Of a DNA stretch of 22,735 bases, positions 2,682 through 19,916 are shown in pieces. The stretch spans positions 1-22,735 of the IMG/VR virus record IMGVR_UViG_3300049893_000608. The stretch is one strand, 5' to 3'. The position numbers and the translations under genes are program-made. Under the pieces are notes generated by a model. The model ran no database searches, was not told the origin of the DNA, and saw only the letters and a list, made by a program, of their open reading frames with translations. Origin of the DNA: a virus. The first letter of the stretch is position 1. The number at the start of each line of letters is the position of its first letter.

Positions 2682-2712
2682 ACTCAGCTTAATCGGCTGA
2701 GTCCTTTTTTTT
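2682..2712. terminator. Bidirectional intrinsic terminator
   Basis: A 7-bp perfect stem, ACTCAGC (2682-2688) with GCTGAGT (2696-2702), encloses a 7-base loop. On the forward strand it is followed by CC and eight T. On the reverse strand it is followed by TTTTTCTTTAT. It ends both the DUF1492-like gene and the convergent reverse operon, whose TAA stop (2689-2691) lies in the loop. Confidence 0.88.
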
Positions 2713-2844
2713 GTCATTTTTTCGTTTCTCGATTTCGTTGTCAATGGCAGTTCTTACAAAGTCAACTTCTTTTTCATACGGTACGAGCAGGGATTTAGCC
2801 TTCTCTATTTGTGCTTCATCGAGGTAATAGCTGTATTTTTTCAT
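2689..2844 (-). CDS. Ribbon-helix-helix (CopG/Arc-like) DNA-binding protein, 51 aa
   Basis: The start is set by AAAGGTGAC a few bases upstream of the ATG at 2844. It overlaps the stop of the preceding reverse gene as ATGA, so the pair is coupled. The 51 residues fit a minimal ribbon-helix-helix fold: a strand (KKYSYYLDE), helix A (AQIEKAKSLLV) and helix B (VDFVRTAIDNEIEKRK), then a Lys/Asp-rich tail. Such proteins bind palindromic operators as dimers and often repress their own operon; many are antitoxins. A perfect palindrome sits in the promoter of this operon (3490-3503) and is an obvious candidate site. The order, with the regulator second, is allowed for such pairs. Identity of the fold is likely; the operator link is inferred. 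Confidence 0.75.
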   Translation of the reverse strand: MKKYSYYLDEAQIEKAKSLLVPYEKEVDFVRTAIDNEIEKRKNDKKKDSAD

Positions 2845-3434
2845 TGTGTCACCTTTGATGTATCTGTGACATATGAAGTTGTTTCTGAATCCCACACAAG
2901 GTTTGGTATAGTCTTGCCTTTAAGTTTAAAACATTCCCCAGCTCCACCGACATCTTTTGGATGCGCCCTCATACAATCGAAATGGATACATGCCTTTCTT
3001 TCTTCTTCGGTACAAGTCTTGCGACAATCTACGCCACCCCATCCATTCATCTCTACTTCAATCTTATTTGAATTGACTTCGTGAATTTCCTTAGCATCAT
3101 CATAATCAAGTCCATTGAGTTCTGAATCAATATCTCTATCCATGTCATAACTTTCGTCCCTGCGAACCCTGAGGGTATATCCTAAACCGTCTATCTGTAT
3201 GTGTATTTTGCCTGTGGTGTTGTCGGTAGAATCTTCGAGTACACTTATACCGCTGCATACTGTGTTTATGAATAAATTCTCTATTTTGTCAACAACAACT
3301 CTCATTTGCAAAACTTCTTCAAACTGGAGATTCTTTCCCATGTGAACTTGCTTCATAACGTTTATCCACATTTCAACTTCTTTCTCTGTCCCTTGAAATG
3401 TCATTCCTGTTACTTTCTCTGTAATATTAATCAT
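2841..3434 (-). CDS. Unknown acidic protein with C-terminal Cys/His cluster, 197 aa
   Basis: I start this reverse gene at the ATG at 3434, preceded by AAAAGGTGG; the longer frame begins at a TTG that lies within that site. The 197-residue product has a predicted alpha/beta N-terminal half, a very acidic stretch (RRDESYDMDRDIDSELNG, 91-108), and a C-terminal region with cysteines at 137, 141, 149, 154 and 168 and histidines at 151 and 158 that could bind zinc. No signal peptide or membrane helix is visible, so it is probably cytosolic. I recognise no family. Its own promoter, opposite orientation and pairing with a ribbon-helix-helix gene mark it as phage cargo (a moron or toxin-antitoxin-like pair) rather than a structural gene; its role is unknown. 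Confidence 0.7.
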   Translation of the reverse strand: MINITEKVTGMTFQGTEKEVEMWINVMKQVHMGKNLQFEEVLQMRVVVDKIENLFINTVCSGISVLEDSTDNTTGKIHIQIDGLGYTLRVRRDESYDMDRDIDSELNGLDYDDAKEIHEVNSNKIEVEMNGWGGVDCRKTCTEEERKACIHFDCMRAHPKDVGGAGECFKLKGKTIPNLVWDSETTSYVTDTSKVTQ

Positions 3435-3482
3435 AATCGTCAACCACCTTTTCAATAATTTCAGTGAAAAACCTGATAATTA

Positions 3483-3891: not shown

Positions 3892-3910
3892 GCATCGCTT
3901 CGCAGCATAT

Positions 3911-3974
3911 CCGCTTGCGTGGAGGCAATAGACAGCTTGTAACTGTCTGTCGGGAGTTCGATTCTCCAAAGCGG
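3911..3974 (+). tRNA. tRNA-Thr(UGU)-like element with short D-arm
   Basis: CCGCTT (3911-3916) pairs with AAGCGG (3969-3974) as a 6-bp acceptor stem. The anticodon arm is textbook: AGACAG/CTGTCT around CTTGTAA, the loop of canonical tRNA-Thr with anticodon TGT at 3938-3940. The T-arm has GGAG/CTCC around TTCGATT; the outermost pair is a G-A mismatch (3952/3968). The D-region is only about 14 bases (3917-3930) instead of about 19. It can form at most a tiny TGC/GCA stem whose loop contains GG. No CCA is encoded. It may be a compact phage tRNA, a decayed tRNA, or a tRNA mimic. It ends 32 bases before terS. Confidence 0.55.
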
Positions 3975-4006
3975 TCTAATATTATTATGGTAAAGGTGGT
4001 GAGATA

Positions 4007-9205: not shown

Positions 9206-9234
9206 ACTAAATTACAATCGAAAGGATGATGAAC

Positions 9235-10428
9235 ATGTCAGCTTCATTAACTAGCCTTAGTGCAATTTTGAAAAATCAATACATCGCTCCTGTAAGAGAG
9301 CAAATCAACAATGACCTTATAATCCTTAACAGAGTTGAAAAGGATTCTGAATCCGTAATGGGTAAAAATTTCACTATTCCTCTGCACTACGGAAGAAACG
9401 AGGGTGTTGGTGCAAGAGCAGAAAACGCCGCACTTCCAACAGCAGGGCAGCAGGCATACAAAGAAGCAATCGTTCCACAAAAACACATCTATGGTAGAAT
9501 CCAGTTGTCTGGACAGGCTATCAAAGCCGCAAGAGCCAATGAAGGTGCTTTCCTTCGTGCGGTAGATAGTGAAATGAAGGGCGTAACAAAAGACCTAAAA
9601 TCAATGATTAACCGTATGCTTTATGGTGATTCTACAGGAGCATTGACATTGTGCGGAACCACTTCCAATGCTACCACTGTTACTGTAGTTTCTACCAAGT
9701 ACCTTAGGGCTGGTATGGTTATTGATATAAGAGATACATCATCTGGTGCGGCTGTAACTAATGGTGATGCAGTAACAATTTTGACAATTGCTTCTGCAAC
9801 TACATTCACAGTAGCCGCTAATGTTACAACTTCATCTTCTCACAGCGTGTATATTGCAGGGTCAAGAAATCAGGAAATCATGGGATTGTCTGGCATTTGC
9901 GCAACAACAGATCCTATCTCTGGTGGATTGCATGGACTTGCAGTTGCTACATATCCTTGGTGGGTTGCTACAGTTAATACTAACAGCTCAGTAAATAGAG
10001 CTATTAGTGAAGTATTGCTCCAAAAGGTTATTGATGATGTTGAAACAGCAGGCAGCGGTAAAATATCTGCTATGTACACATCACATGGAGTAAGGCGTGC
10101 ATATCAGGCTTTGTTGACTTCTCAAAAGATTTACCAGAACACACAGAAGTTTAACGGCGGATTTGACGCACTCACTTATAACGGTTTGCCGATGTTTGCT
10201 GATAAGGATTGCCAAGCTAATACACTGTATATGCTTGATGAATCAATGATTAAATGGTTCCAAGTTAATCCAGAGGGCATGACTTGGATGGAAGAGGATG
10301 GAGCTATTCTTTCCAGAGTATCAGGCTATGACGCATACGAAGCAGTAATGTTTGACTATTGCGAGCTTGGCTGTATGTCAAGAAATGCTTTCGCTAAGAT
10401 TGGCGATTTGGCAGAGGCTAGTGCATAA
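9235..10428 (+). CDS. Major capsid protein (HK97 fold)
   Basis: I place the start at the ATG at 9235, which best fits the spacing from AAAGGA; two more in-frame ATGs lie at 9226 and 9229. The 397-residue protein has the features of HK97-fold coat proteins: an N-terminal arm (LKNQYIAPVREQINND), an E-loop region with a Gly/Ala-rich stretch (EGVGARAENAALPTAGQ), a spine helix (VTKDLKSMINRMLYGD) and a P-domain/A-domain tail. A beta-rich insertion at about 145-209 (VTVVSTKYLRAGMVIDI and following) is likely a surface I-domain. The fold has no mobile cleavage signal that I can see. It sits right after the scaffold gene and is followed by a strong hairpin. Confidence 0.92.
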   Translation: MSASLTSLSAILKNQYIAPVREQINNDLIILNRVEKDSESVMGKNFTIPLHYGRNEGVGARAENAALPTAGQQAYKEAIVPQKHIYGRIQLSGQAIKAARANEGAFLRAVDSEMKGVTKDLKSMINRMLYGDSTGALTLCGTTSNATTVTVVSTKYLRAGMVIDIRDTSSGAAVTNGDAVTILTIASATTFTVAANVTTSSSHSVYIAGSRNQEIMGLSGICATTDPISGGLHGLAVATYPWWVATVNTNSSVNRAISEVLLQKVIDDVETAGSGKISAMYTSHGVRRAYQALLTSQKIYQNTQKFNGGFDALTYNGLPMFADKDCQANTLYMLDESMIKWFQVNPEGMTWMEEDGAILSRVSGYDAYEAVMFDYCELGCMSRNAFAKIGDLAEASA

Positions 10429-10493: not shown

Positions 10494-10784
10494 ATGGCAG
10501 CAACAGCAACCATTACTTCAAGAGACAAAACAATTAACCGAAAAATAGTATACGGGACAGTAGTATTGGACTCATCCTACGCCACGGGAGGCGAGAGCAT
10601 TACTCCAGCTTCATTAGGATTGGGTCAAATTGATTTTATAACCTTTACTAATGCAAGCGGTTATAGATACGAGTTTGACTATACAAATAACAAGATAATG
10701 TCTTATACGAGCGGTGGAACTGAAACAACATCCACAACAGACTTATCAAGTATAACCGCTAGATACATGGCAATTGGTAAATAA
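10494..10784 (+). CDS. Small virion protein, 96 aa
   Basis: GAGGAAG lies 8-9 bases before this ATG. The 96-residue product is beta-rich and Thr/Ser-rich with few charges, like small structural proteins found directly behind the capsid gene in many Gram-positive phages. It carries the pattern SITPASLGLGQIDFITFTNASG followed by YRYEFDYTNNKIMSY here broken into two parts; a Leu-Gly-Leu plus a Tyr-Glu-Phe-Asp-Tyr strand pair is typical of that group. It may decorate the head or act as a minor head protein. The gene stands between two terminator-like hairpins (10443 and 10786), so its transcript level can differ from both neighbours. The function is inferred from position and composition only. Confidence 0.7.
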   Translation: MAATATITSRDKTINRKIVYGTVVLDSSYATGGESITPASLGLGQIDFITFTNASGYRYEFDYTNNKIMSYTSGGTETTSTTDLSSITARYMAIGK

Positions 10785-10785
10785 C

Positions 10786-10814
10786 AGGGGGGATAACTCC
10801 CCTCTTTTTATTTT
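10786..10814 (+). terminator. Terminator/attenuator after the 96-aa virion gene
   Basis: AGGGGGG (10786-10792) pairs with CTCCCCT (10797-10803; one G-U wobble) around ATAA, followed by CTTTTTATTTTA. Together with the hairpin at 10443 it forms two step-down points in a row within the structural operon. Confidence 0.75.
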
Positions 10815-10829
10815 ATGGAGGGACGCAAG

Positions 10830-11162
10830 ATGGTTGAATTTTCTGAATTGGCAGACAAGCAAAGAATCATGAAAGAAATTAGTCCAGACTTTGACGTTAC
10901 TTTTGATGTGGCTTTTGAGGAATACTGCATATCCCATAAGGATGTATTGTTTCGCAGAGTTCCAGTTGATGGGTTTACACGTCAAGAAGTGGAAGAAATC
11001 CGAAGGGTTGTCTGGATTAATGAAAATGGAAATATTTTGGAAGAGGTTGACAACGCAAATGAGAAACGAGAATTGGACAATGAAAAAAAGGCTAGCGATT
11101 TATATTATCAGATGGCTCAAGATATACGCAAACCATTAATCAAAGAAGTTTATGGAATATAG
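10830..11162 (+). CDS. Hypothetical acidic protein, 110 aa
   Basis: I start this gene at the ATG at 10830, 7 bases after GGAGGG; an in-frame ATG at 10815 lies within that site. The 110-residue product is acidic, with a mixed alpha/beta N-terminus (EISPDFDVTFDVAFEEYC), a middle strand region and a helical charged C-terminus (NEKRELDNEKKASDLYYQMA). Its length and place behind the capsid gene would suit a head completion or capsid-associated protein, but no family motif is visible to me. It is not Thr/Ser-rich like its neighbours, so it may be a cytosolic assembly factor rather than a virion part. Its stop (TAG 11160-11162) lies within the ribosome binding site of the following gene. Confidence 0.65.
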   Translation: MVEFSELADKQRIMKEISPDFDVTFDVAFEEYCISHKDVLFRRVPVDGFTRQEVEEIRRVVWINENGNILEEVDNANEKRELDNEKKASDLYYQMAQDIRKPLIKEVYGI

Positions 11163-11174
11163 GAGGTGTTACTA

Positions 11175-11507
11175 GTGGGAACAAAAACAACTTTTAATCA
11201 TACTTTTCACAATGCGGCTACAAGCACTGGAAACGGAAATGAATACGTTGTGGGTGGAGCTACAACACTTACAGTTAAAATCACAGGCACGAGTTCAAGC
11301 AGAACCGTCACATTCTATGCAAAAGATATTGACGGCAACCTTACTGCTTTGTTGGGGTTTAGATTATCCGATTTGGCTTCAGGCACAAGCACAACTGGAA
11401 CGGGCGAATATTGGGTGTTTGATGTTACAGGCATAGAAGCGGTTGTGATGGATTTAACGGCAGTATCTGGCGGAAATGTTACTGTAAAAGGCAAGGCGGT
11501 AGCATAA
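11175..11507 (+). CDS. Small beta-sandwich virion protein, 110 aa
   Basis: The start is a GTG at 11175, 6 bases after AGGAGGTG, which overlaps the preceding stop; a GTG at 11166 lies inside the site. The 110 residues are dominated by Thr, Ser, Gly and Val in alternating strands (TTLTVKITGTSSSRTVTF, EYWVFDVTGIEAVVMDL, GGNVTVKGKAV), a pattern of Ig-like or jelly-roll virion proteins. Few Lys/Glu and no catalytic motif are present. I take it as a capsid decoration or fibre-base protein because the next gene is a collagen-like fibre. Exact family is not recognised. About 50 bases without a gene follow, apart from a 15-codon frame that I reject. Confidence 0.65.
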   Translation: MGTKTTFNHTFHNAATSTGNGNEYVVGGATTLTVKITGTSSSRTVTFYAKDIDGNLTALLGFRLSDLASGTSTTGTGEYWVFDVTGIEAVVMDLTAVSGGNVTVKGKAVA

Positions 11508-11558
11508 GCAAATGAAACTCCAATTTTATTGGGATATTGATAGAAAGGAAGTGGACTA

Positions 11559-12644
11559 ATGGGAGATATAATCGGCAAGGCGGCTTATGCTAAGGCTAAT
11601 GCCATAGATGCAGAAGTGACAAGCATAGATGAAAGAGTTACAGATATCGAAGAAGGCGGCGGAAATACGCTTGCTGGAAATATACAATCTGAAACATTTA
11701 CGGCTACAGCAGGACAAACAGAATTTACGCTTAGTGATACTAATGGAAGTTTATTTATGGTTATCGTTAATAATGTTATTCAAACCGTAGGTGTTGGTTA
11801 TACAAAAACATCTGAAATCAAAGCAACGTTGACTTCAGGAGCTTCATTAAATGACAAGGTCACTATACATTACTTTAAGGCAACAAATGTTGTAAATTCA
11901 ACTGGAAGTACAAATACATGGTTAAGTGGATCGGGCACACCTGCCAATGGAAGTGGAAACGACGGGGATTATTATTTTAGAACTGCAACTGGAGATGTGT
12001 ATCTTAAAGCGGCAGGAACGTGGGGAAGTCCAATTGCAACTATAAAAGGAGAAAAAGGTGACACAGGCGCTACAGGAGCAACAGGCGAAACCGGAGCAAC
12101 TGGAGCGGCAGGTGCAACTTGGTACAATGGGTCTGGTGTGCCATCTGACGAAACAGGTAGCAATGGAGATTATTATTTAAGAACATCTAACAGCGATGTA
12201 TACTTTAAGTCTGGCGGTACTTGGGGTTCTGCTGTAGCAAACATTAAAGGAGCTACGGGAGCTACGGGAGCAACAGGAGAAACAGGTGCTACGGGATCAG
12301 CAGGTGCCGATGGGGCTGATGGAACTAATGGTGTATATAATACTGTTACTCAATCTGATAGTTATACGTTGGCACTTACTGATGCAAATACACTACAAAA
12401 ATGTACGAAAGGAACAGCTATGACGGTAACGGTTCCGGCAAATGCAAGTGTAGCGTTTGATGTTGGCGTAGAAATTGCAATAGTTCAATATGGGGCAGGA
12501 GCTGTAACTATAGAAGCAGCAGGAGGTGTCACCATTAATAGTGATACTGGTAAATTAAAAATTTCAACACAATATACAAGTGCTACTCTTAAAAAGATTG
12601 CAACAAATGAGTGGTTGCTTGTAGGCGCATTAGTAGCTGCTTAA
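11559..12644 (+). CDS. Collagen-like phage fibre protein, 361 aa
   Basis: AAAGGAAG lies 9 bases before this ATG. The product begins with a helical coiled stretch (AKANAIDAEVTSIDERVTDIEE, here 13-32, probable trimerisation). A small beta domain follows (41-108, ETFTATAGQTEFTL, then MVIVNNVIQTVGVGY). Then come two copies of a roughly 67-residue unit (121-187 and 188-257), each made of a small beta part (NGDYYLRT, then DVYFKSGGTWG) plus a collagen run (8 and 9 Gly-X-Y triplets, mostly GAT). The C-terminal domain (261-361) resembles fibre tips. Collagen runs form triple helices, so the protein is a trimeric fibre. As it is encoded next to the capsid genes and not with the tail genes, it may be a head fibre. 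It could serve attachment to cells or surface glycans. Confidence 0.85.
   Translation: MGDIIGKAAYAKANAIDAEVTSIDERVTDIEEGGGNTLAGNIQSETFTATAGQTEFTLSDTNGSLFMVIVNNVIQTVGVGYTKTSEIKATLTSGASLNDKVTIHYFKATNVVNSTGSTNTWLSGSGTPANGSGNDGDYYFRTATGDVYLKAAGTWGSPIATIKGEKGDTGATGATGETGATGAAGATWYNGSGVPSDETGSNGDYYLRTSNSDVYFKSGGTWGSAVANIKGATGATGATGETGATGSAGADGADGTNGVYNTVTQSDSYTLALTDANTLQKCTKGTAMTVTVPANASVAFDVGVEIAIVQYGAGAVTIEAAGGVTINSDTGKLKISTQYTSATLKKIATNEWLLVGALVAA
11919..12329 (+). repeat. Tandem duplication within the collagen-like gene
   Basis: Two adjacent units (11919-12119 and 12120-12329) encode the same domain order: a Trp-start beta part, GDYY, DVY, GTWGS and IKG motifs, then a collagen run. They differ at many codons, so the duplication is not recent. 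The Gly-Ala-Thr codons within the runs are more alike than the beta parts and may slip or recombine. Confidence 0.8.
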
Positions 12645-12659
12645 AAAGGGGGATATGAT

Positions 12660-13460
12660 ATGTTATTATCACAATTTGGCGTAATACCCTCTCGACCAGC
12701 AACGGTAGGTCAGTGGGATAATGTGGTGGCTATATATTCAATGGTTAAAGAAAAATCAGATTATACAGGAAGTTGTATGAGGGTTTGGAGAGCATCTGAT
12801 TCGACCGAACAAGATATAGGATTTTCTGGGGATAATCTCGACACAACTGCATTAAGTACATTTTGTTCGGGGACATCTGGATATGTATCTAAGTGGTACG
12901 ACCAAAGTGGAAATGGGAGAGATGCTGTTCAGGCTACATCTGGTAATATGCCTAGAATATATGAAAGCGGGGCTGTTCATGCTGGTGTATCTTTTCATAC
13001 AGTTTCAAGAAGACTTAATGCTTCTGGGTTGTTGGCTGCATTAACTGCAAATTTTACAATTCTGATGAAAATAAAGCCTAACTCTTATAACTATGGCGAC
13101 GCTATTTATGCCAATATTAATGGTGGAACTACAAGCAAGGGATTTAAAGTCTCTCAAAATGGAACTACAGTAAACCAATACAAGCTTGACGTTTATCCTT
13201 CTGGTGGAGCGAGTACAGATAAACTTTTGAAACAAGGAACTAACACCGACTACCATACATTAGCTATGACTCGAAATGGAACTGCTGTTGAAGGATTTTA
13301 TGATGGGACTTCATACTCTGACGAAACTGTAAATAGTGGAAATTTAGAACAGGCGAGTGGAGATAGTGCAATAGCTTATGGGCATAATGTTACTTATTTT
13401 AAAAAGTGGATGCTATTTTCAAGGGTTTTAAGCGACACTGAAATATCTAATTTAACCTAG
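12660..13460 (+). CDS. Arabinofuranosidase-B-like/lectin-like protein
   Basis: The 266-residue protein begins with a motif set seen in the N-terminal domain of fungal/bacterial alpha-L-arabinofuranosidase B and in many phage fibre proteins: GSCMRVWRASDSTEQDIGF (about 37-55), LDTTAL, then KWYDQSGNGRDAVQ (78-91). The rest is a concanavalin/LamG-like beta sandwich (NFTILMKIKP, HTLAMTRNGTAVEGFYDG, and MLFSRVLSDTEISNL at the end, a classic LamG ending). It therefore probably binds, and perhaps cuts, a surface polysaccharide; I cannot confirm catalytic residues, so binding is the safer claim. The ribosome site is AAAGGGGG. It follows the collagen-like fibre and precedes an esterase gene. Confidence 0.78.
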   Translation: MLLSQFGVIPSRPATVGQWDNVVAIYSMVKEKSDYTGSCMRVWRASDSTEQDIGFSGDNLDTTALSTFCSGTSGYVSKWYDQSGNGRDAVQATSGNMPRIYESGAVHAGVSFHTVSRRLNASGLLAALTANFTILMKIKPNSYNYGDAIYANINGGTTSKGFKVSQNGTTVNQYKLDVYPSGGASTDKLLKQGTNTDYHTLAMTRNGTAVEGFYDGTSYSDETVNSGNLEQASGDSAIAYGHNVTYFKKWMLFSRVLSDTEISNLT

Positions 13461-13472
13461 GAGGTGATTTTT

Positions 13473-14591
13473 GTGGCTATAGAAAAATTGAAGTATGATT
13501 TAAAATCTATTACTAATAGTGACATATCAGAAAACACTGTGTATCCAATCAATATCAAAGGGGCTTCTAATTACAATTTACTTAATCGAGCAGAACAAGT
13601 AGTTCCAAATATTACCGAGAATAAATATACTGCTAGTGGAAATTTATATTCTAATAATAGTTATTACATATCATCAAAGATACCAGTAAAAGCTAGCACT
13701 CAATATACTATGAGTTGTCTTGTTGGCTCAAGTGTAAACTATGGCTCTATGTATGATAAAAATGATAATTATTTAGCAAATATAAACGATAATTCAGCTC
13801 ATCCAGTAACAACTTTTACAACTACATCAACAACAGCATATATAAGGATAAACTGCTATGGAGTGACTAGAACAGCAACAACTATATCGGCTGATGCTAT
13901 GATAGTTGAAGGTGACACATTGCCAGCTATTACAGTTCCATATGGTGTTGATTTAGACTGGCTTAAATTAAATACATCACAATTAACATTAGCAGGCAAT
14001 AGATGGCTAGGTAAAAAAGCAAACTTTTTAGGTGATAGCATAACGGCTGGAAATCAAACCGCTGGTACTGCTTTTCCTACTTTGGTTGGACAATATCTAG
14101 GATTAAGTGTTTGCAGAAATTATGGTATATCTGGTACTACAGTTGGAACAGGTACAGGAGAAAATAATCCGATGGTTACAAGATATACGGATATGGATGA
14201 CGATGCGGATATTGTTGCATTTAATGGCGGGTTAAATGATCTACCATATATTAATAATCTTGGAACAATAAATGATGCAGTAACCACAAGTTTTTATGGA
14301 GCATTAAATGTTCTCGTTGATGGTTTAATAACAAAATATCCATCTGCATTAATATTTGGGATGACAACGACTCCCCGTGAATCTGCTGGAAATGTCGAAG
14401 GATACGCTGCTGCTATACAAGCTGTATGTGCTAAATTTCTTATACCATGCTTGGACTTATACCATATAAGTGGCATGAATCCAAAAAACGCATCTATGAA
14501 AGCGGCATATTTTGGAGATGGACTACATCATAGCGCAGCAGGTAAAGTAAGACTTGCAAATATAATTGCAGGGTTTATCAGAACTCAATAA
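13473..14591 (+). CDS. SGNH-hydrolase (GDSL-like esterase) with N-terminal beta domain
   Basis: The start is a GTG at 13473 after AGGAGGTG; a GTG at 13464 lies inside the site. The 372-residue protein has an N-terminal carbohydrate-binding-like beta domain (about 40-155, with ASTQYTMSCLVGSS and following strands) and a C-terminal SGNH domain (about 180-372). All four blocks are present: GDSIT (187-191, nucleophile Ser189), GISG (218-221, oxyanion Gly), NGGLND (251-256, Asn255) and DGLHHS (349-354, Asp349 and His352). Such enzymes remove acetyl or other acyl groups from glycans; phage versions act on O-acetylated capsule or cell-wall polymers. There is no signal peptide, in keeping with a virion enzyme. 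Its substrate cannot be read from sequence. Confidence 0.92.
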   Translation: MAIEKLKYDLKSITNSDISENTVYPINIKGASNYNLLNRAEQVVPNITENKYTASGNLYSNNSYYISSKIPVKASTQYTMSCLVGSSVNYGSMYDKNDNYLANINDNSAHPVTTFTTTSTTAYIRINCYGVTRTATTISADAMIVEGDTLPAITVPYGVDLDWLKLNTSQLTLAGNRWLGKKANFLGDSITAGNQTAGTAFPTLVGQYLGLSVCRNYGISGTTVGTGTGENNPMVTRYTDMDDDADIVAFNGGLNDLPYINNLGTINDAVTTSFYGALNVLVDGLITKYPSALIFGMTTTPRESAGNVEGYAAAIQAVCAKFLIPCLDLYHISGMNPKNASMKAAYFGDGLHHSAAGKVRLANIIAGFIRTQ

Positions 14592-14650
14592 TCCCAATAA
14601 AATTTTGCTTTTAATGGAACTAAAAATAAAATATAAACGGAGGGTTTTCT

Positions 14651-15634
14651 ATGAATATCGAAAAATTCTTTCAAGGCACAGTATCAAGCACAGCAACAAC
14701 ATTTACATTGCCATATGCGGCAAGAAATGTAATCATCGCAAATGAAGGTAGCGAAAATGTAACCGTTAGCTTTTCTGTAAACAATGTACTTACAGTAGGC
14801 GTAGGTGAATCAAAAAGCTTTGCAGGCATTAACCTAAAAACATTTACAGTAGCAGCTGCTTCTTCATCGTCAACAATTGAAATTACAGTGGAATATGATG
14901 CAGTATTTGCGCAAATGGAAGAGTATCTCCCTACGGGTTTGAGTAAGTTGCCGTCAAGGAAGTTTGAAATATTTGACGATTTCTTACAGCAGACAATAAC
15001 AGAAGCAGACACGCCTTGGGCTTTTAATAAAGGTAATGATGCACAAGCGGCAGACCCTGTTATAGTAGCGGCAGCAGAAGAAGGCGTAATTCGTTTGACC
15101 ACGGGCAACAACTCAGGTACGCTTTCTGATGATGGAAGTCAAATAGTATGTGCTGTTCCTGTACAAGCTGATTCTGGTGGGTTAGTATTTGAAACAAGGC
15201 TAAAAATTAACACAGCCGTTACAACTGTTTCGGTAAATGCAGGCTTTACTGACAGTACATCTCTCGAAGAACCATTCACAATATCGGGCTCAACAATAAC
15301 AGCGGTTGCTACTGATGCGGCTTGTTTTGTTTATGACACAGCTCAAACAACAGACCAATGGATGGCATGTTCGGTTGACGGAGATACAGTTGATGAAGAT
15401 AGCGACTTGACGGGTATTGCTCCTGTAGCTGATACATACCAGACGCTTAGAATAGAAGTAGACTCTGATGGGAACACAATCAGATATTACATTAATGGTT
15501 CACTTGTAAGGACTCTTACAATAACAGGCATATCTCCTAGTGTAAATCTATATGCCACAGTAGTAGCCAACGCAACAACTACGACAAGCAGAGTTGTGGA
15601 CATTGATTATATTTATGTTGCTCATAACAGATAA
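14651..15634 (+). CDS. LamG/ConA-like virion protein, 327 aa
   Basis: GGAGGG lies 9 bases before this ATG. The 327-residue product has two parts. Residues 6-88 form a compact beta domain (GTVSSTATTFTLPYAARNV, VGVGESKSFAGINLKTFTV). Residues 103-327 look like a concanavalin/LamG-like sandwich: FEIFDDFL, SGGLVFETRLKINTA, QTLRIEVDSDGNTIRYYING and VVDIDYIYVAH are its typical strands. Lectin-like domains of this type bind glycans. No catalytic residues are obvious. The protein is encoded after the esterase and before the decoration-like gene, still ahead of the tail connector genes, so it is probably carried on the head or its fibres. Family naming is moderate; virion location is inferred. Confidence 0.72.
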   Translation: MNIEKFFQGTVSSTATTFTLPYAARNVIIANEGSENVTVSFSVNNVLTVGVGESKSFAGINLKTFTVAAASSSSTIEITVEYDAVFAQMEEYLPTGLSKLPSRKFEIFDDFLQQTITEADTPWAFNKGNDAQAADPVIVAAAEEGVIRLTTGNNSGTLSDDGSQIVCAVPVQADSGGLVFETRLKINTAVTTVSVNAGFTDSTSLEEPFTISGSTITAVATDAACFVYDTAQTTDQWMACSVDGDTVDEDSDLTGIAPVADTYQTLRIEVDSDGNTIRYYINGSLVRTLTITGISPSVNLYATVVANATTTTSRVVDIDYIYVAHNR

Positions 15635-15649
15635 TAGTGGGGTGAGAAT

Positions 15650-16225
15650 ATGGCATTAGTAAATTCAAGTGTAGAGGATATAACGGCTGATACTATGTTA
15701 GCCACAAGCAAGCCTAAGATAGATGGGAATGATGATAAACTATTAGCGAACGATGTAGCAATAGAAGCAAGAGTCACCACTTTGGAGGGTGGCTCTTTTT
15801 CTTCTGCAACAAAAACTAAGTTTACCGCTGAAGGTGGATTAGCTATTAAACTAACTAACAAAACAGGTACAACAAGCGTTAAGGGTACGGTCGTATCTGC
15901 GGCAACTGGAACAGATAATGCTTTTATATTGCAGGCGAATGAGTATGATGCAATTGGCGTTGTGTATGAAAACGGTATAGCTGATGCGGCAGAATGTTGG
16001 GTGGTAGTCGCAGGAATTGCACAGGTGTTATTAAAGGATTCTACGGCGGCAACGAGGGGATATATTGCCTTGTGTGCTGATACCGATGGAAGATTTATCG
16101 CAACGGCACCAAGCGGAAGTCCTCCAATCGCAACAGATACACACTTTAAGGAAATAGGACATGTAATTGAAAGCCAAAATTCTGGCACGAACGTCCTTTG
16201 CAAATGCGTACTACACTTTAACTAA
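15650..16225 (+). CDS. Head decoration-like protein, 191 aa
   Basis: GGGGTGAG lies before the ATG. The 191-residue product has a helical N-terminus with a short coiled coil (NDDKLLANDVAIEARVTTLE, about 27-46), suited to trimer formation. A beta domain follows, of a type that recurs in phage capsid-associated proteins (GLAIKLTNKTGTTSVKGTVV, then YDAIGVVYENGIADAAECWV, then VLLKDSTAATRGYIAL, then EIGHVIES and CKCVLHFN at the end). Domains of this kind resemble the small beta-barrel head decoration proteins that clamp capsid subunits at threefold sites. I do not see a catalytic motif. It is the last gene before the head-tail adaptor, and it completes the run of surface proteins behind the capsid gene. 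Confidence 0.72.
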   Translation: MALVNSSVEDITADTMLATSKPKIDGNDDKLLANDVAIEARVTTLEGGSFSSATKTKFTAEGGLAIKLTNKTGTTSVKGTVVSAATGTDNAFILQANEYDAIGVVYENGIADAAECWVVVAGIAQVLLKDSTAATRGYIALCADTDGRFIATAPSGSPPIATDTHFKEIGHVIESQNSGTNVLCKCVLHFN

Positions 16226-16237
16226 TGGGGGTGACTT

Positions 16238-16807
16238 ATGGCTAACTTAACCCTTCAACAAATGATTGACAAGGTCGCCATGTATACGAGACGAGAGATT
16301 GGAGCGTCTCCATATACAGGCGAAAACTTAGATATAGTTAATAAAATTAAGGACGGTATCAACTACGCATATGAGAAAATATGCAAAGAGAAGTACCGTC
16401 TTTCTTATACTCAGGATATAACGCTAGACAGTAACCTTGAGTATGACACAAGCAATTTAACAAAGACTCTCTTAGAGATTAAGAAAATCAACTATGATAA
16501 CTTGAATTATCGGTTTGAGTTCATGGATGATGATGTAATTCGTATTCCTGATGGTACAAGTGGAACAACGTATGAAATAACCTATACATATGTTCCGACT
16601 GTGTTATCAGACTTAACGGATAAGCCAGAGTTCAAAGAAGGTCAAATTGACGATACCATTATATGTTACTATGCGGCGTATCACTATTTGAATATTGAGA
16701 TTGATTCGTCAAGTATTACATGGCTAAACCTTTTCAATGAAGGATTTGAAAAAATAAGAGACAGAAAAGGTGCAAGCAAAAAAGTTAAATCATTAGCGAG
16801 GTGGTAA
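16238..16807 (+). CDS. Head-tail adaptor protein (P22 gp4-like position)
   Basis: This 189-residue, mostly helical protein (LTLQQMIDKVAMYTRREIG, DGINYAYEKICKEKY, then strands around 60-115 and a long C-terminal helix) has the size and make-up of adaptor proteins that dock under the portal in podoviruses. It starts the connector cluster and overlaps nothing, but lies 1 base before the next gene, whose GAGGTGG ribosome site overlaps its last codons. The mixed helix-strand-helix order with an aromatic-rich end (CYYAAYHYLNIEID) is typical of this group. The role as connector follows from shape, size and order; I cannot prove direct portal binding. Confidence 0.75.
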   Translation: MANLTLQQMIDKVAMYTRREIGASPYTGENLDIVNKIKDGINYAYEKICKEKYRLSYTQDITLDSNLEYDTSNLTKTLLEIKKINYDNLNYRFEFMDDDVIRIPDGTSGTTYEITYTYVPTVLSDLTDKPEFKEGQIDDTIICYYAAYHYLNIEIDSSSITWLNLFNEGFEKIRDRKGASKKVKSLARW

Positions 16808-16808
16808 C

Positions 16809-18704
16809 ATGGCTATACCTTTGCAAACGGCTAGACCGCCACAAAGATTGAATTTTAAGGTGAATAAGTTTAAAGGGGTAAATAAAAGTGTTACCCCTTC
16901 TCAGATTGATGATGGGCAAAGCCCTGATATGCTAAATTTCCTGCTTGATAGTGAGTTTGCTTTGGATAAACGCACGGGGTATTATGCTTTATTTGACAAG
17001 CTACTTGGTGCATATACTTGGGCTGATGGTGAGTGGTCAAGTGCGGCTTGGACAAGTGGAACAGAGGATAACCCCGTTAAGGGGCTTTTTTTATATCGTA
17101 AAAGTGATGGCAATATAGAAAGGCTTATGTTTCAAGGTGGAAGCCTATACAAATGGACTGACACCACAAATACACTTATTTACACTGGTCTTGCTGATAC
17201 CATTCCAACAACATTTCAAGTGAATGATATTTTCTATTTTATGGATGGTACGGGATATTATTCATACAATGGAACTACTGTATCCGACATGACTGGTGCA
17301 AACGCATACGCTCCAACTATAACGCTAGGTCGTGCTCCTACTGGTGGAGGCACGGCAAACGAACAATTAAATTTGATTGGTACGGGATTTAAAGATTCAT
17401 TTTCGGGCAACGGTTCATCCACAACTTATACACTAAGTTATGCAGGATTAGCTTCAACGACCGTAACGTGTACCATTGGTGGCGTAGCAAAAACCGAAGG
17501 CACACATTTTACCGTGGATAGGACGAATGGAACAGTAAACTTTTCGGCGGGAACTTCTCCGCACGGTGCGCCTGCAAGTGGAACAAATAACGTTGTAATA
17601 ACGGCTTATAAGACATGGGACGATTACACAACAAGGAAAGAAAAAATAATTAAGTGTACGCTTTCAATATTCTTTGGTGGTACAAACGATACTAGAGTAT
17701 TAGTGAGCGGACACCCAACGTTGAAGAATATAGTTTATAGGTCAAGTTTAACTTCGGCAGGATATGCAGACCCGACATACTTTCCCGAAAACACATATTC
17801 CCTTGTTGGAGCAAATAACGAATCAATTTTAAACGTTGCAAAGCAATATGACACGCTTATTATTGTGAAGGAAAGCACGACCTATACAATGGCATATGAG
17901 ATTAACGGCGGAACGGCTCAATACACCACAAAGCCTATAAATGATACTGTGGGTATATATGCAAAGAATAGTTTAGCTATCCTTGATAATAACCCAACGT
18001 TTGTATCAAATAAAGGCGTGTATCAGCTTATTCAAGGACAGGTAAGAGACGAGCGTAACATGAAGCATTTGTCTGAGAATATTGACGAGGATTTGTTGAA
18101 TGAAGCTAACCTTGATGATGCTGTGGGGTATGACTTTGATAAGAAGTATTATATATGCCTTCCTTCTGGAAAGACGTATGTTTATGACTATGCCGCTAAA
18201 GAATGGCTCATATGGAACAACATAAAGGCTTCTTGCTTCTACGATGAAGGTAACTACCTTTACTTTGGAGCGAGTGACTGCGGCTGTGTATATAAGTTCA
18301 AGAAAGTTGATGATGTTGGTGCTTTCTATGATGATGGTGCGGCTATAAACTCTTACTGGAAAAGTAAAGTATTCAACCTAAAACGTGGAGACTTCCAAAA
18401 GCTTATTGACAGGCTAATAATCACGCTAAAGCCGTACAGCATAAGTAGTGCAAAGATATATTATTCGGCTGACAAGAAGGTGTCAAAGTATGTTAAAGAG
18501 ATTGATTTAGTATCATTTGATTTTAACACGCTTGATTTTAGCAACTTCTCGTTTGAAAGCTTCACACTTCCACAAACAAAGACAGCTAGAATAAACGAAA
18601 ATAGCACAGTTTACTTTCAGATTGAAATTGTAAACAACGAAGCAGGCGAAGGCTTGGGAATAACGGAGATTGGTATTCTTCATGCACCACAAAAATATGT
18701 GTAA
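16809..18704 (+). CDS. P22 gp10-like tail hub/stabilisation protein, 631 aa
   Basis: GAGGTGG lies just before this ATG. The N-terminus (FKGVNKSVTPSQIDDGQSP, then DMLNFLLDSEFALDKRTGY) is a signature of the large beta-propeller proteins that close and stabilise the head-tail joint in P22-type podoviruses. The body shows repeated strand blocks with Tyr/Trp/Gly turns, in line with a propeller or tail nozzle. An inserted beta domain at roughly 190-275 (SGNGSSTTYTLSYAGL, IGGVAKTEGTHFTVD) resembles the 41-108 domain of the collagen-like fibre and could be a surface-exposed add-on. Length is somewhat above P22 gp10 (472), which the insert helps explain. No tape-measure or tail-tube gene is found nearby, which supports a podovirus tail. 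Confidence 0.8.
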   Translation: MAIPLQTARPPQRLNFKVNKFKGVNKSVTPSQIDDGQSPDMLNFLLDSEFALDKRTGYYALFDKLLGAYTWADGEWSSAAWTSGTEDNPVKGLFLYRKSDGNIERLMFQGGSLYKWTDTTNTLIYTGLADTIPTTFQVNDIFYFMDGTGYYSYNGTTVSDMTGANAYAPTITLGRAPTGGGTANEQLNLIGTGFKDSFSGNGSSTTYTLSYAGLASTTVTCTIGGVAKTEGTHFTVDRTNGTVNFSAGTSPHGAPASGTNNVVITAYKTWDDYTTRKEKIIKCTLSIFFGGTNDTRVLVSGHPTLKNIVYRSSLTSAGYADPTYFPENTYSLVGANNESILNVAKQYDTLIIVKESTTYTMAYEINGGTAQYTTKPINDTVGIYAKNSLAILDNNPTFVSNKGVYQLIQGQVRDERNMKHLSENIDEDLLNEANLDDAVGYDFDKKYYICLPSGKTYVYDYAAKEWLIWNNIKASCFYDEGNYLYFGASDCGCVYKFKKVDDVGAFYDDGAAINSYWKSKVFNLKRGDFQKLIDRLIITLKPYSISSAKIYYSADKKVSKYVKEIDLVSFDFNTLDFSNFSFESFTLPQTKTARINENSTVYFQIEIVNNEAGEGLGITEIGILHAPQKYV

Positions 18705-18717
18705 AGGAGTGGTATAG

Positions 18718-19698
18718 ATGGGCGATATAAACACACTTAAAGATACAAACGCCGTAACGACTATACAATCACTAGATGATAGACCAGTTTTAGCTACAAC
18801 TAACGCTTTAAAGGCAAAGTTTGACGAGTATCCTGATGATTTAAGGGAACGTGTTAATAATTTGATAGATTATTTGCTGAAAAATAATAATACAGACGAT
18901 GGGGCAAGCAATATCGGTATCAATTCACCTTATGCCACTACGGTAAAGGGATTGTTCGATTACATATTAGGTCTAGGTACAGGAACTCTTCCTCCTGATG
19001 GAAGTATAACGAACGATAAACTAGCCACCACAAATAAAACAGGATTATTGGCAGACCTAACAACTACGGCAAAAACAACTCTTGTTGCTGCAATAAACGA
19101 AATATTGTCAACATTAACATCAACGTGTGGGTTGCTTGTTAATTTAACAACATCCGCAAAAACAAATCTTGTAGCTGCCATAAATGAATTGGTATCTATA
19201 AATTCTTATAATGTTGGCGAAGTCAAATACTTTGCTATGTCAATAGCTCCTACAGGATATTTAAAAGCTAATGGTGCTGCTGTAAGTAGAAGTGCATATG
19301 CTAGTTTATTCACAGCTATTGGGACAACTTTTGGGGTTGGTGATGGTTCGACTACGTTCAACTTGCCAGACTTGAGAGGCGTTTTCCCTCGTGGATGGGA
19401 TGATGGAAGAGGATATGATACAGGTCGTGTATTTGGTAGTTATCAGGCCGATGATATTAAGGCTCATGGTCATACGTTTACTACTTCAAGTAATGGAGAT
19501 CATAATCATACATATAGCCAATATAATACTAGCGTTTATGGTTCTGGCAATGGTAATAATCAGCCTGTGAATACTACATCTTCAACTACTACAGGAAATG
19601 CAGGAACCCATACACACACAGGCACAACCGATAATAATGGTTCAGCAACTGAAACAAAAGTAAAAAACGTAGCTTTATTGGCTTGTATCAAATATTAG
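18718..19698 (+). CDS. Tail fibre with phage collar domain, 326 aa
   Basis: AAAGGAGTGG lies before the ATG. The N-terminus (about 1-60) is helical and charged and should anchor the fibre. Two near-copies of a 21-residue helix (109-129 and 138-158, both ending in AAINE) form the stalk. Residues 165-230 match the phage collar/tail-fibre tip domain: VGEVKYFAMSIAPTGYLKAN, then FGVGDGSTTFNLPDLRG and FPRGWDDGRG. The C-terminus carries His-X-His pairs (250/252, 262/264, 298/300), like the metal-binding fibre tips of T4-type fibres, and ends in the usual NVALLACIKY. It is the likely receptor-binding protein. It follows the tail hub gene and precedes a small partner gene. Confidence 0.88.
   Translation: MGDINTLKDTNAVTTIQSLDDRPVLATTNALKAKFDEYPDDLRERVNNLIDYLLKNNNTDDGASNIGINSPYATTVKGLFDYILGLGTGTLPPDGSITNDKLATTNKTGLLADLTTTAKTTLVAAINEILSTLTSTCGLLVNLTTSAKTNLVAAINELVSINSYNVGEVKYFAMSIAPTGYLKANGAAVSRSAYASLFTAIGTTFGVGDGSTTFNLPDLRGVFPRGWDDGRGYDTGRVFGSYQADDIKAHGHTFTTSSNGDHNHTYSQYNTSVYGSGNGNNQPVNTTSSTTTGNAGTHTHTGTTDNNGSATETKVKNVALLACIKY
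19042..19191 (+). repeat. Two 63-base repeats in the fibre stalk
   Basis: 19042-19104 and 19129-19191 encode 21 residues each that differ at only five positions (start GLLA or GLLV, end AAINEI or AAINEL). They sit 87 bases apart start to start, giving a 29-residue period, and make up the stalk between anchor and collar domain. Confidence 0.75.
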
Positions 19699-19709
19699 GA
19701 GGAAATACA

Positions 19710-19916
19710 GTGAAAATATATCATTATCACCCAATTACCAAAGAATATATGGGAGAAGGGCTAGCTGACCTTTCGCCTCTTGATAAAAAGCATGGACGTG
19801 AGGTTTGGTTAGTTCCAGCAAATTCAACAACAGAAAGACCACCAGATGCAAAAACTGGATACATAAGAACTTTTGAAAATAATCAATGGATAGAAAATAA
19901 CATAATGGAGGTGTAG
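19710..19916 (+). CDS. Small fibre-associated protein, 68 aa
   Basis: The start is a GTG at 19710, 7 bases after AGGAGG; a longer frame beginning at 19683 would overlap the fibre gene and lacks a ribosome site. The 68-residue product has the layout of short tail-fibre partner proteins: an N-terminal strand pair (KIYHYHPITKEYMGEGLA), a central VWLVPANST with TERPP, and a C-terminal WIEN after an aromatic strand. This matches the N-terminal part of many tail fibre assembly or chaperone-like proteins. Directly behind the fibre gene, its likely job is folding or attachment of the fibre. Its stop is 3 bases before the next start. Confidence 0.72.
   Translation: MKIYHYHPITKEYMGEGLADLSPLDKKHGREVWLVPANSTTERPPDAKTGYIRTFENNQWIENNIMEV

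Follow-up and report, generated by a model that had tools for sequence, protein, structure and literature searches.

Which part of the particle do glycan-handling proteins serve when a podovirus (short-tailed phage) encodes them between its capsid gene and its head-tail adaptor gene? The question is raised by IMGVR_UViG_3300049893_000608, a podovirus genome fragment of 22,735 bases (this whole stretch is called the window below), whose structural region fills its right half and in which the segment 11166-16225 separates the head genes from the adaptor and tail genes. A preliminary description of the window had answered it from gene order, which it took to be exceptional, proposing that the head may be coated with lectin- and esterase-bearing fibres. 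We favour a different reading, to which we would give a probability of roughly 0.7: the segment would be an adsorption cassette, mobile by horizontal transfer, in a P22/Page-like podovirus, with its products anchored at the collar. The cassette proper consists of six genes, which are preceded by a purine-rich Shine-Dalgarno-like stretch and separated by short gaps of 3-59 bases (lengths in amino acids, aa):

11166-11507, + strand: YomS/XepA-C family beta-sandwich protein (PDB 6i5o YomS, E=7e-25; 6i56 XepA, E=3e-18)
11559-12644, + strand: collagen-like fibre (PF01391, E=5e-7) with a C-terminal domain common to minor tail proteins
12660-13460, + strand: 266-aa protein with an arabinofuranosidase-B-like N-terminal segment (PF09206) and a LamG-like domain (Laminin_G_3)
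13473-14591, + strand: SGNH/GDSL esterase of 372 aa with an N-terminal beta module (PF13472, E=8e-18)
14651-15634, + strand: spike-like protein of 327 aa, with a candidate Page-type attachment domain at residues 7-77
15650-16225, + strand: m191, putative adaptor-adjacent fibre of 191 aa, with an N-terminal anchor (1-57) and an exchangeable C-terminal domain (59-191)

A variable site around the adaptor gene

The open reading frames (ORFs) and their order between capsid and adaptor are as the preliminary description gave them, and the adaptor and tube genes follow directly behind the cassette. The cluster of eight genes that it had drawn from 10494 onwards keeps its last six members but loses the first two:

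10494-10784, + strand: f96, small gene 3' of the capsid gene
10815-11162, + strand: g115, small conserved gene found before the adaptor gene in relatives lacking the cassette

Both lie outside the cassette because they persist in relatives without it. Homologues of f96, a capsid-associated gene with a possible decoration role, are found directly behind the capsid gene in the cassette-less locus L002 and in L040, L106 and L107, and g115 is followed directly by the adaptor gene in L002, L004, L057, L098, L103, L109, L114, L115 and L117. The uninterrupted order of capsid, f96 (in some), g115, adaptor and tube occurs in L002, L004, L049, L057, L098, L103, L109 and L115, whose capsids are 50-58% identical. 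Elsewhere the same interval is occupied differently: a 718-aa spike-like protein is inserted between f96 and g115 in L040 and L106, a 294-aa protein between g115 and the adaptor in L116, and proteins of 319 aa (L113) and 422 aa (L111) between adaptor and tube. With its relatives of close capsid mostly lacking it or carrying a different insert, the segment 11166-16225 is, as judged from gene order, a mobile module.

The wider comparison covered 62 distinct loci, defined by tube proteins less than 90% identical to each other; interval counts are approximate, given that outside two profiled families the gene after the scaffold was taken as the capsid gene. The distance from capsid to adaptor had a median of 417 bases and was largest, at 5.8 kilobases (kb), in the window. 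It reached at least 1.5 kb in 16 loci, the distance from adaptor to tube reached at least 0.9 kb in nine, and one or the other applied to 22. Because 22 of the 62 relatives thus carry extra genes flanking the adaptor, with tail-spike types making up many of those that were read, the position of the cassette is not unusual, contrary to the preliminary description. The site itself is recurrent; what is unusual is how many short genes are kept separate here, and that they are combined with a YomS-like disc.

According to Pfam, the inserts of relatives include pectate-lyase-like or beta-helix spikes, an endosialidase-type spike with an S74 chaperone, a zinc carboxypeptidase, a LamG protein and spikes headed by Mtd_N, one of which ends in an SGNH domain. 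Isolated phages show the same arrangement: next to the adaptor, Page, Pascal and Shocker have genes for spikes, for a carboxypeptidase or for an SGNH esterase, and in Shocker, a Microbacterium phage, genes for a beta-helix protein, a hydrolase and an SGNH esterase lie between capsid and adaptor.

Not all inserts are adhesins, as several ORFs in the same interval look by eye like HNH or recombinase genes. HNH-like ORFs within the capsid-adaptor-tube interval (L120:4929-5777, L020:3908-4654) suggest that homing elements share the variable site, and the capsid-adaptor interval of another locus holds an ORF of 458 aa (L032:7105-8478) that by eye has an IscB-type look, with an RRXRR-like start and an HNH motif. 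Tyrosine-recombinase-like ORFs beside spike genes (L095:8701-9531, L024:8876-9913) are a possible means of cassette exchange. The tube gene appears to be split by a 301-aa ORF in L051 and L113, which are the same contig (L113:9515-10718), by a 128-aa ORF in L027 and by a 677-aa spike-like ORF in L030, through either an inserted element or an assembly effect.

Six short genes for surface glycans

Among the small beta proteins of the preliminary description, the one at 11166-11507 now has a family of known structure. Its residues 5-112 align with PDB 6i5o, a full-length homology to the family, and it is 47% identical over its full length to SPbeta yomS, which in that phage adjoins the minor tail and tail fibre genes yomR and yomQ. 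The crystal structure of YomS is a homopentameric disc, and the structural authors considered capsid binding for pentamers of this family (PMC6834076). The same paper describes XepA as a lytic-cassette protein with cytotoxicity, a property that YomS lacks, and as absent from the mature phage (PMC6834076). In the next protein, the collagen repeats were recognised as described, and residues 264-358 match, at about 46%, the C-terminal ends of minor tail proteins from Gordonia phages (phrog_8780, minor tail protein).

For the 266-aa protein, the names arabinofuranosidase-B-like and LamG apply in part. ArabFuran-catal (PF09206) matches at E=7e-9 but only over profile positions 13-90 of 315, the alignment with the AkAbfB chain in PDB is limited to residues 25-92, and Laminin_G_3 reaches E=1e-4 at 22.8 bits, under its curated cut-off of 27.6. 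A complete GH54 enzyme was considered and rejected, only this fragment of the catalytic domain being alignable. Since the match spans only the first quarter of that domain, a lectin-like module appears more likely than a GH54 enzyme. The protein is about 40% identical to Gordonia phage minor tail proteins, and L044 carries a homologue in the same interval.

The esterase is intact, as had been claimed, with all four catalytic blocks present (in 375-aa numbering, GDS at 190-192, GISGT at 221, GGLND at 255-259 and DGLHHS at 352-357). Its length of 372 aa fits a start at GTG 13473, which is better spaced after AGGAGG than the mechanically assigned GTG 13464 (375 aa). The protein resembles the solved GDSL-like proteins 7bxd and 3dc7 in PDB; its N-terminal module is 34% identical to a spike of L025 and its SGNH domain 25% identical to the Shocker esterase. 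Used as single-sequence queries against viral contigs, neither this protein nor the 327-aa protein found relatives. Taken together, the lectin-like protein, the SGNH esterase and the collagen-like fibre make it very probable that the cluster deals with surface glycans, and on this point we agree with the preliminary description.

Glycan handling need not take place on the virion, and the esterase, which has no recognised anchor, could together with the YomS-like disc act as a soluble factor for lysis or host-surface modification, leaving only the remaining proteins as spikes. The cytotoxicity of XepA would fit such a role. However, the N-terminal domain that XepA needs for cytotoxicity is missing from the YomS-like protein of the window, and the SGNH domains of relatives are parts of spikes or of annotated tail fibre or minor structural proteins. 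We regard this mixed scenario as very unlikely; the products of the cassette are probably virion-borne.

The last gene of the cassette encodes a protein of two modules. Receptor-binding proteins are usually built from a conserved anchor and a distal domain that is exchanged. Residues 1-55 of m191 are 73% identical in L044, where they are joined to a different C-terminus, and residues 59-191 recur at 52-63% identity in L121 and L122, joined to other N-termini. In L120 a homologue that is 74% identical over the full length adjoins the adaptor gene, as do m191-related proteins in L044 and L054. From these alignments m191 is to be seen as a recombinant of anchor and distal domain. It gave no significant match in Pfam, PHROG or PDB. 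The preliminary description had called it decoration-like; in view of the domain exchange, a modular fibre appears the better reading.

Anchoring at the collar or on the capsid

The 327-aa protein is a candidate for attachment to the particle. It had been described as a second LamG-like protein, a label that is tentative: Laminin_G_3 scores E=0.027, far below the cut-off, and no relative was found in PDB by sequence. Its C-terminal part is possibly LamG-like. AlphaFold models of this protein and of m191 are too poor for use (mean predicted local distance difference test scores, pLDDT, of 36 and 35, respectively), and tblastn of both proteins against phage records found nothing. When compared with the Page-type domain by hhalign, the protein scored 28.4, with control maxima of 19.6 among 400 real N-termini and 21.2 among 150 shuffles. 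This is moderate evidence that the attachment domain is present.

In Page and its relatives, the domain comprises about 93 residues and was found in 16 proteins whose genes lie to either side of the adaptor gene, where it begins a pectin-lyase spike, a carboxypeptidase, the Pascal endosialidase and a stand-alone 132-aa protein. Locus L018 has two spikes that flank the adaptor gene on opposite sides and share this N-terminal attachment domain (44% identical). Since spikes encoded to the left and to the right of the adaptor carry the domain, the position of a gene relative to the adaptor is no guide to where its product binds, and the step from capsid-adaptor position to head fibres is not supported. 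In addition, domains of the cassette recur in the minor-tail clusters of Gordonia siphophages and beside the tail-fibre genes of SPbeta. In SU10, the long tail fibres gp12 and gp13 attach to the adaptor, gp11, whose number directly precedes theirs (PMC9509320).

By analogy with the SU10 fibres, we infer that the cassette products would be virion proteins that dock round the adaptor and collar. The 327-aa protein, through its Page-type N-terminal domain, and m191, through its conserved 57-residue N-terminus, would be anchored spikes. Binding of cell-wall or capsule glycans would fall to the collagen-like fibre and the arabinofuranosidase-B-like/LamG protein, which would extend outward, and the esterase would strip O-acetyl or other ester groups, so that the receptor is opened or exposed. 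The collar fibre encoded 3' of the tube gene would serve as a second, conventional receptor-binding device.

The rival that some or all of these proteins sit on the capsid, in the style of phi29 gp8.5, SPP1 gp12 or P68 and Andhra, deserves careful weighing. In its favour, the cassette lies directly behind the capsid genes. The collagen-like gp12 of SPP1 binds the capsid as a trimer, and decoration proteins are capable of carbohydrate binding (PMC7602432); in Andhra, the portal vertex is ringed by five head fibres (PMC9710869). The pentameric disc has also been proposed as a capsid binder. Other points speak against it: the Andhra head-fibre gene is not adjacent to its capsid gene (gp13 versus gp18; PMC9710869), XepA is missing from the mature particle, the cassette proteins match no known head fibre in a sequence search of PDB, their domains recur in tail-protein clusters, and the Page-type domain on the 327-aa protein is the one carried by spikes from both adaptor sides. 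The PHROG category 'head and packaging' was also considered as evidence of head location and rejected, the label being the general 'virion structural protein'. On balance we consider head fibres unlikely; they would endow the head with lectin and esterase functions, perhaps only on the five hexamers round the portal vertex. A more elaborate version, in which a capsid-docked YomS-like pentamer forms the base of a collagen-like fibre whose subunits include lectin and esterase, all acquired as one cassette, seems less probable still.

Several points also weigh against anchoring at the collar. The collagen-like, arabinofuranosidase-like and SGNH proteins have no recognised anchor, and the match of the 327-aa protein is a comparison with a one-sequence profile at a probability of 61%. 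The Page spikes owe their name to annotation rather than to a location in the particle. Podoviruses of Gram-positive hosts, namely phi29, P68 and Andhra, do bear head fibres, and YomS-family pentamers may bind capsids according to their structural authors (PMC6834076). Lastly, the collar location proposed for the cassette proteins is read from genes.

The surrounding genome and known phages

The structural order of the window runs from the small and large terminases through portal (phrog_156), scaffold-like protein, capsid, the two small genes and the cassette to adaptor, tube/stabilisation protein, collar fibre, fibre chaperone and further late proteins. The main flanking features are:

9226-10428, + strand: major capsid protein (phrog_14242 major head protein, E=3e-97)
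16238-16807, + strand: head-tail adaptor (iterative profile including Page gp12 and its relatives, with 88 matching ORFs; phrog_13046 weak)
16809-18704, + strand: tail tube/stabilisation protein (phrog_3287; Bacillus phage Page/Pony virion structural protein, 40% over 97%)
18718-19698, + strand: tail collar fibre of conventional type, outside the cassette (phrog_523 tail collar fiber, E=5e-45)
19683-19916, + strand: tail fibre assembly chaperone (phrog_105 tail fiber assembly, E=2e-12)

The capsid is 28-34% identical to those of Arthrobacter and Microbacterium phages, compared with 50-58% for its IMG/VR relatives, and when one genome from each of 84,980 species was searched for this capsid, no prophage with it turned up. 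Homologous N-termini of the collar fibre lie directly 3' of the tube gene in relatives. Upstream, a tRNA-Thr (TGT) gene at 3910-3976 lies just before the terminase small subunit gene, and two ORFs of 68 and 204 aa at 2689-3455 run on the minus strand, against an otherwise plus-strand gene order.

A close parallel, with the same gene plan, is Pagevirus (Bacillus phages Page, Pascal, Pony and Palmer), which has a homologous tube protein (40%), spikes and enzymes flanking the adaptor and an N-terminal attachment domain that the 327-aa protein would share. Page, however, makes its spikes as long single chains (563-746 aa) and has a capsid of a different family, whereas the window distributes these functions among six short genes that all lie between capsid and adaptor. 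Shocker has a 34% identical capsid and, as in the window, an esterase in the capsid-adaptor interval, but the enzyme has 530 aa, and that interval yielded neither a collagen-like fibre nor a YomS-like or arabinofuranosidase-like protein. The likeness to YomS of SPbeta and XepA of PBSX concerns a single protein, and yomS stands beside siphophage tail-fibre genes rather than in a podovirus cassette. The head fibres of phi29 (gp8.5), P68, Andhra and SPP1 (gp12) aid adsorption in podoviruses and a siphovirus, and gp12 is collagen-like, as is the fibre of the window; a search of PDB by sequence found no similarity between them and the cassette proteins, for which a head location is hypothetical.

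Were the head reading true, this phage would possess an enzyme-bearing head coat. The comparison reveals a variable site around the adaptor gene of Page-like podoviruses at which adhesins and enzymes are exchanged as modules, and it cautions against inferring head location from gene order.

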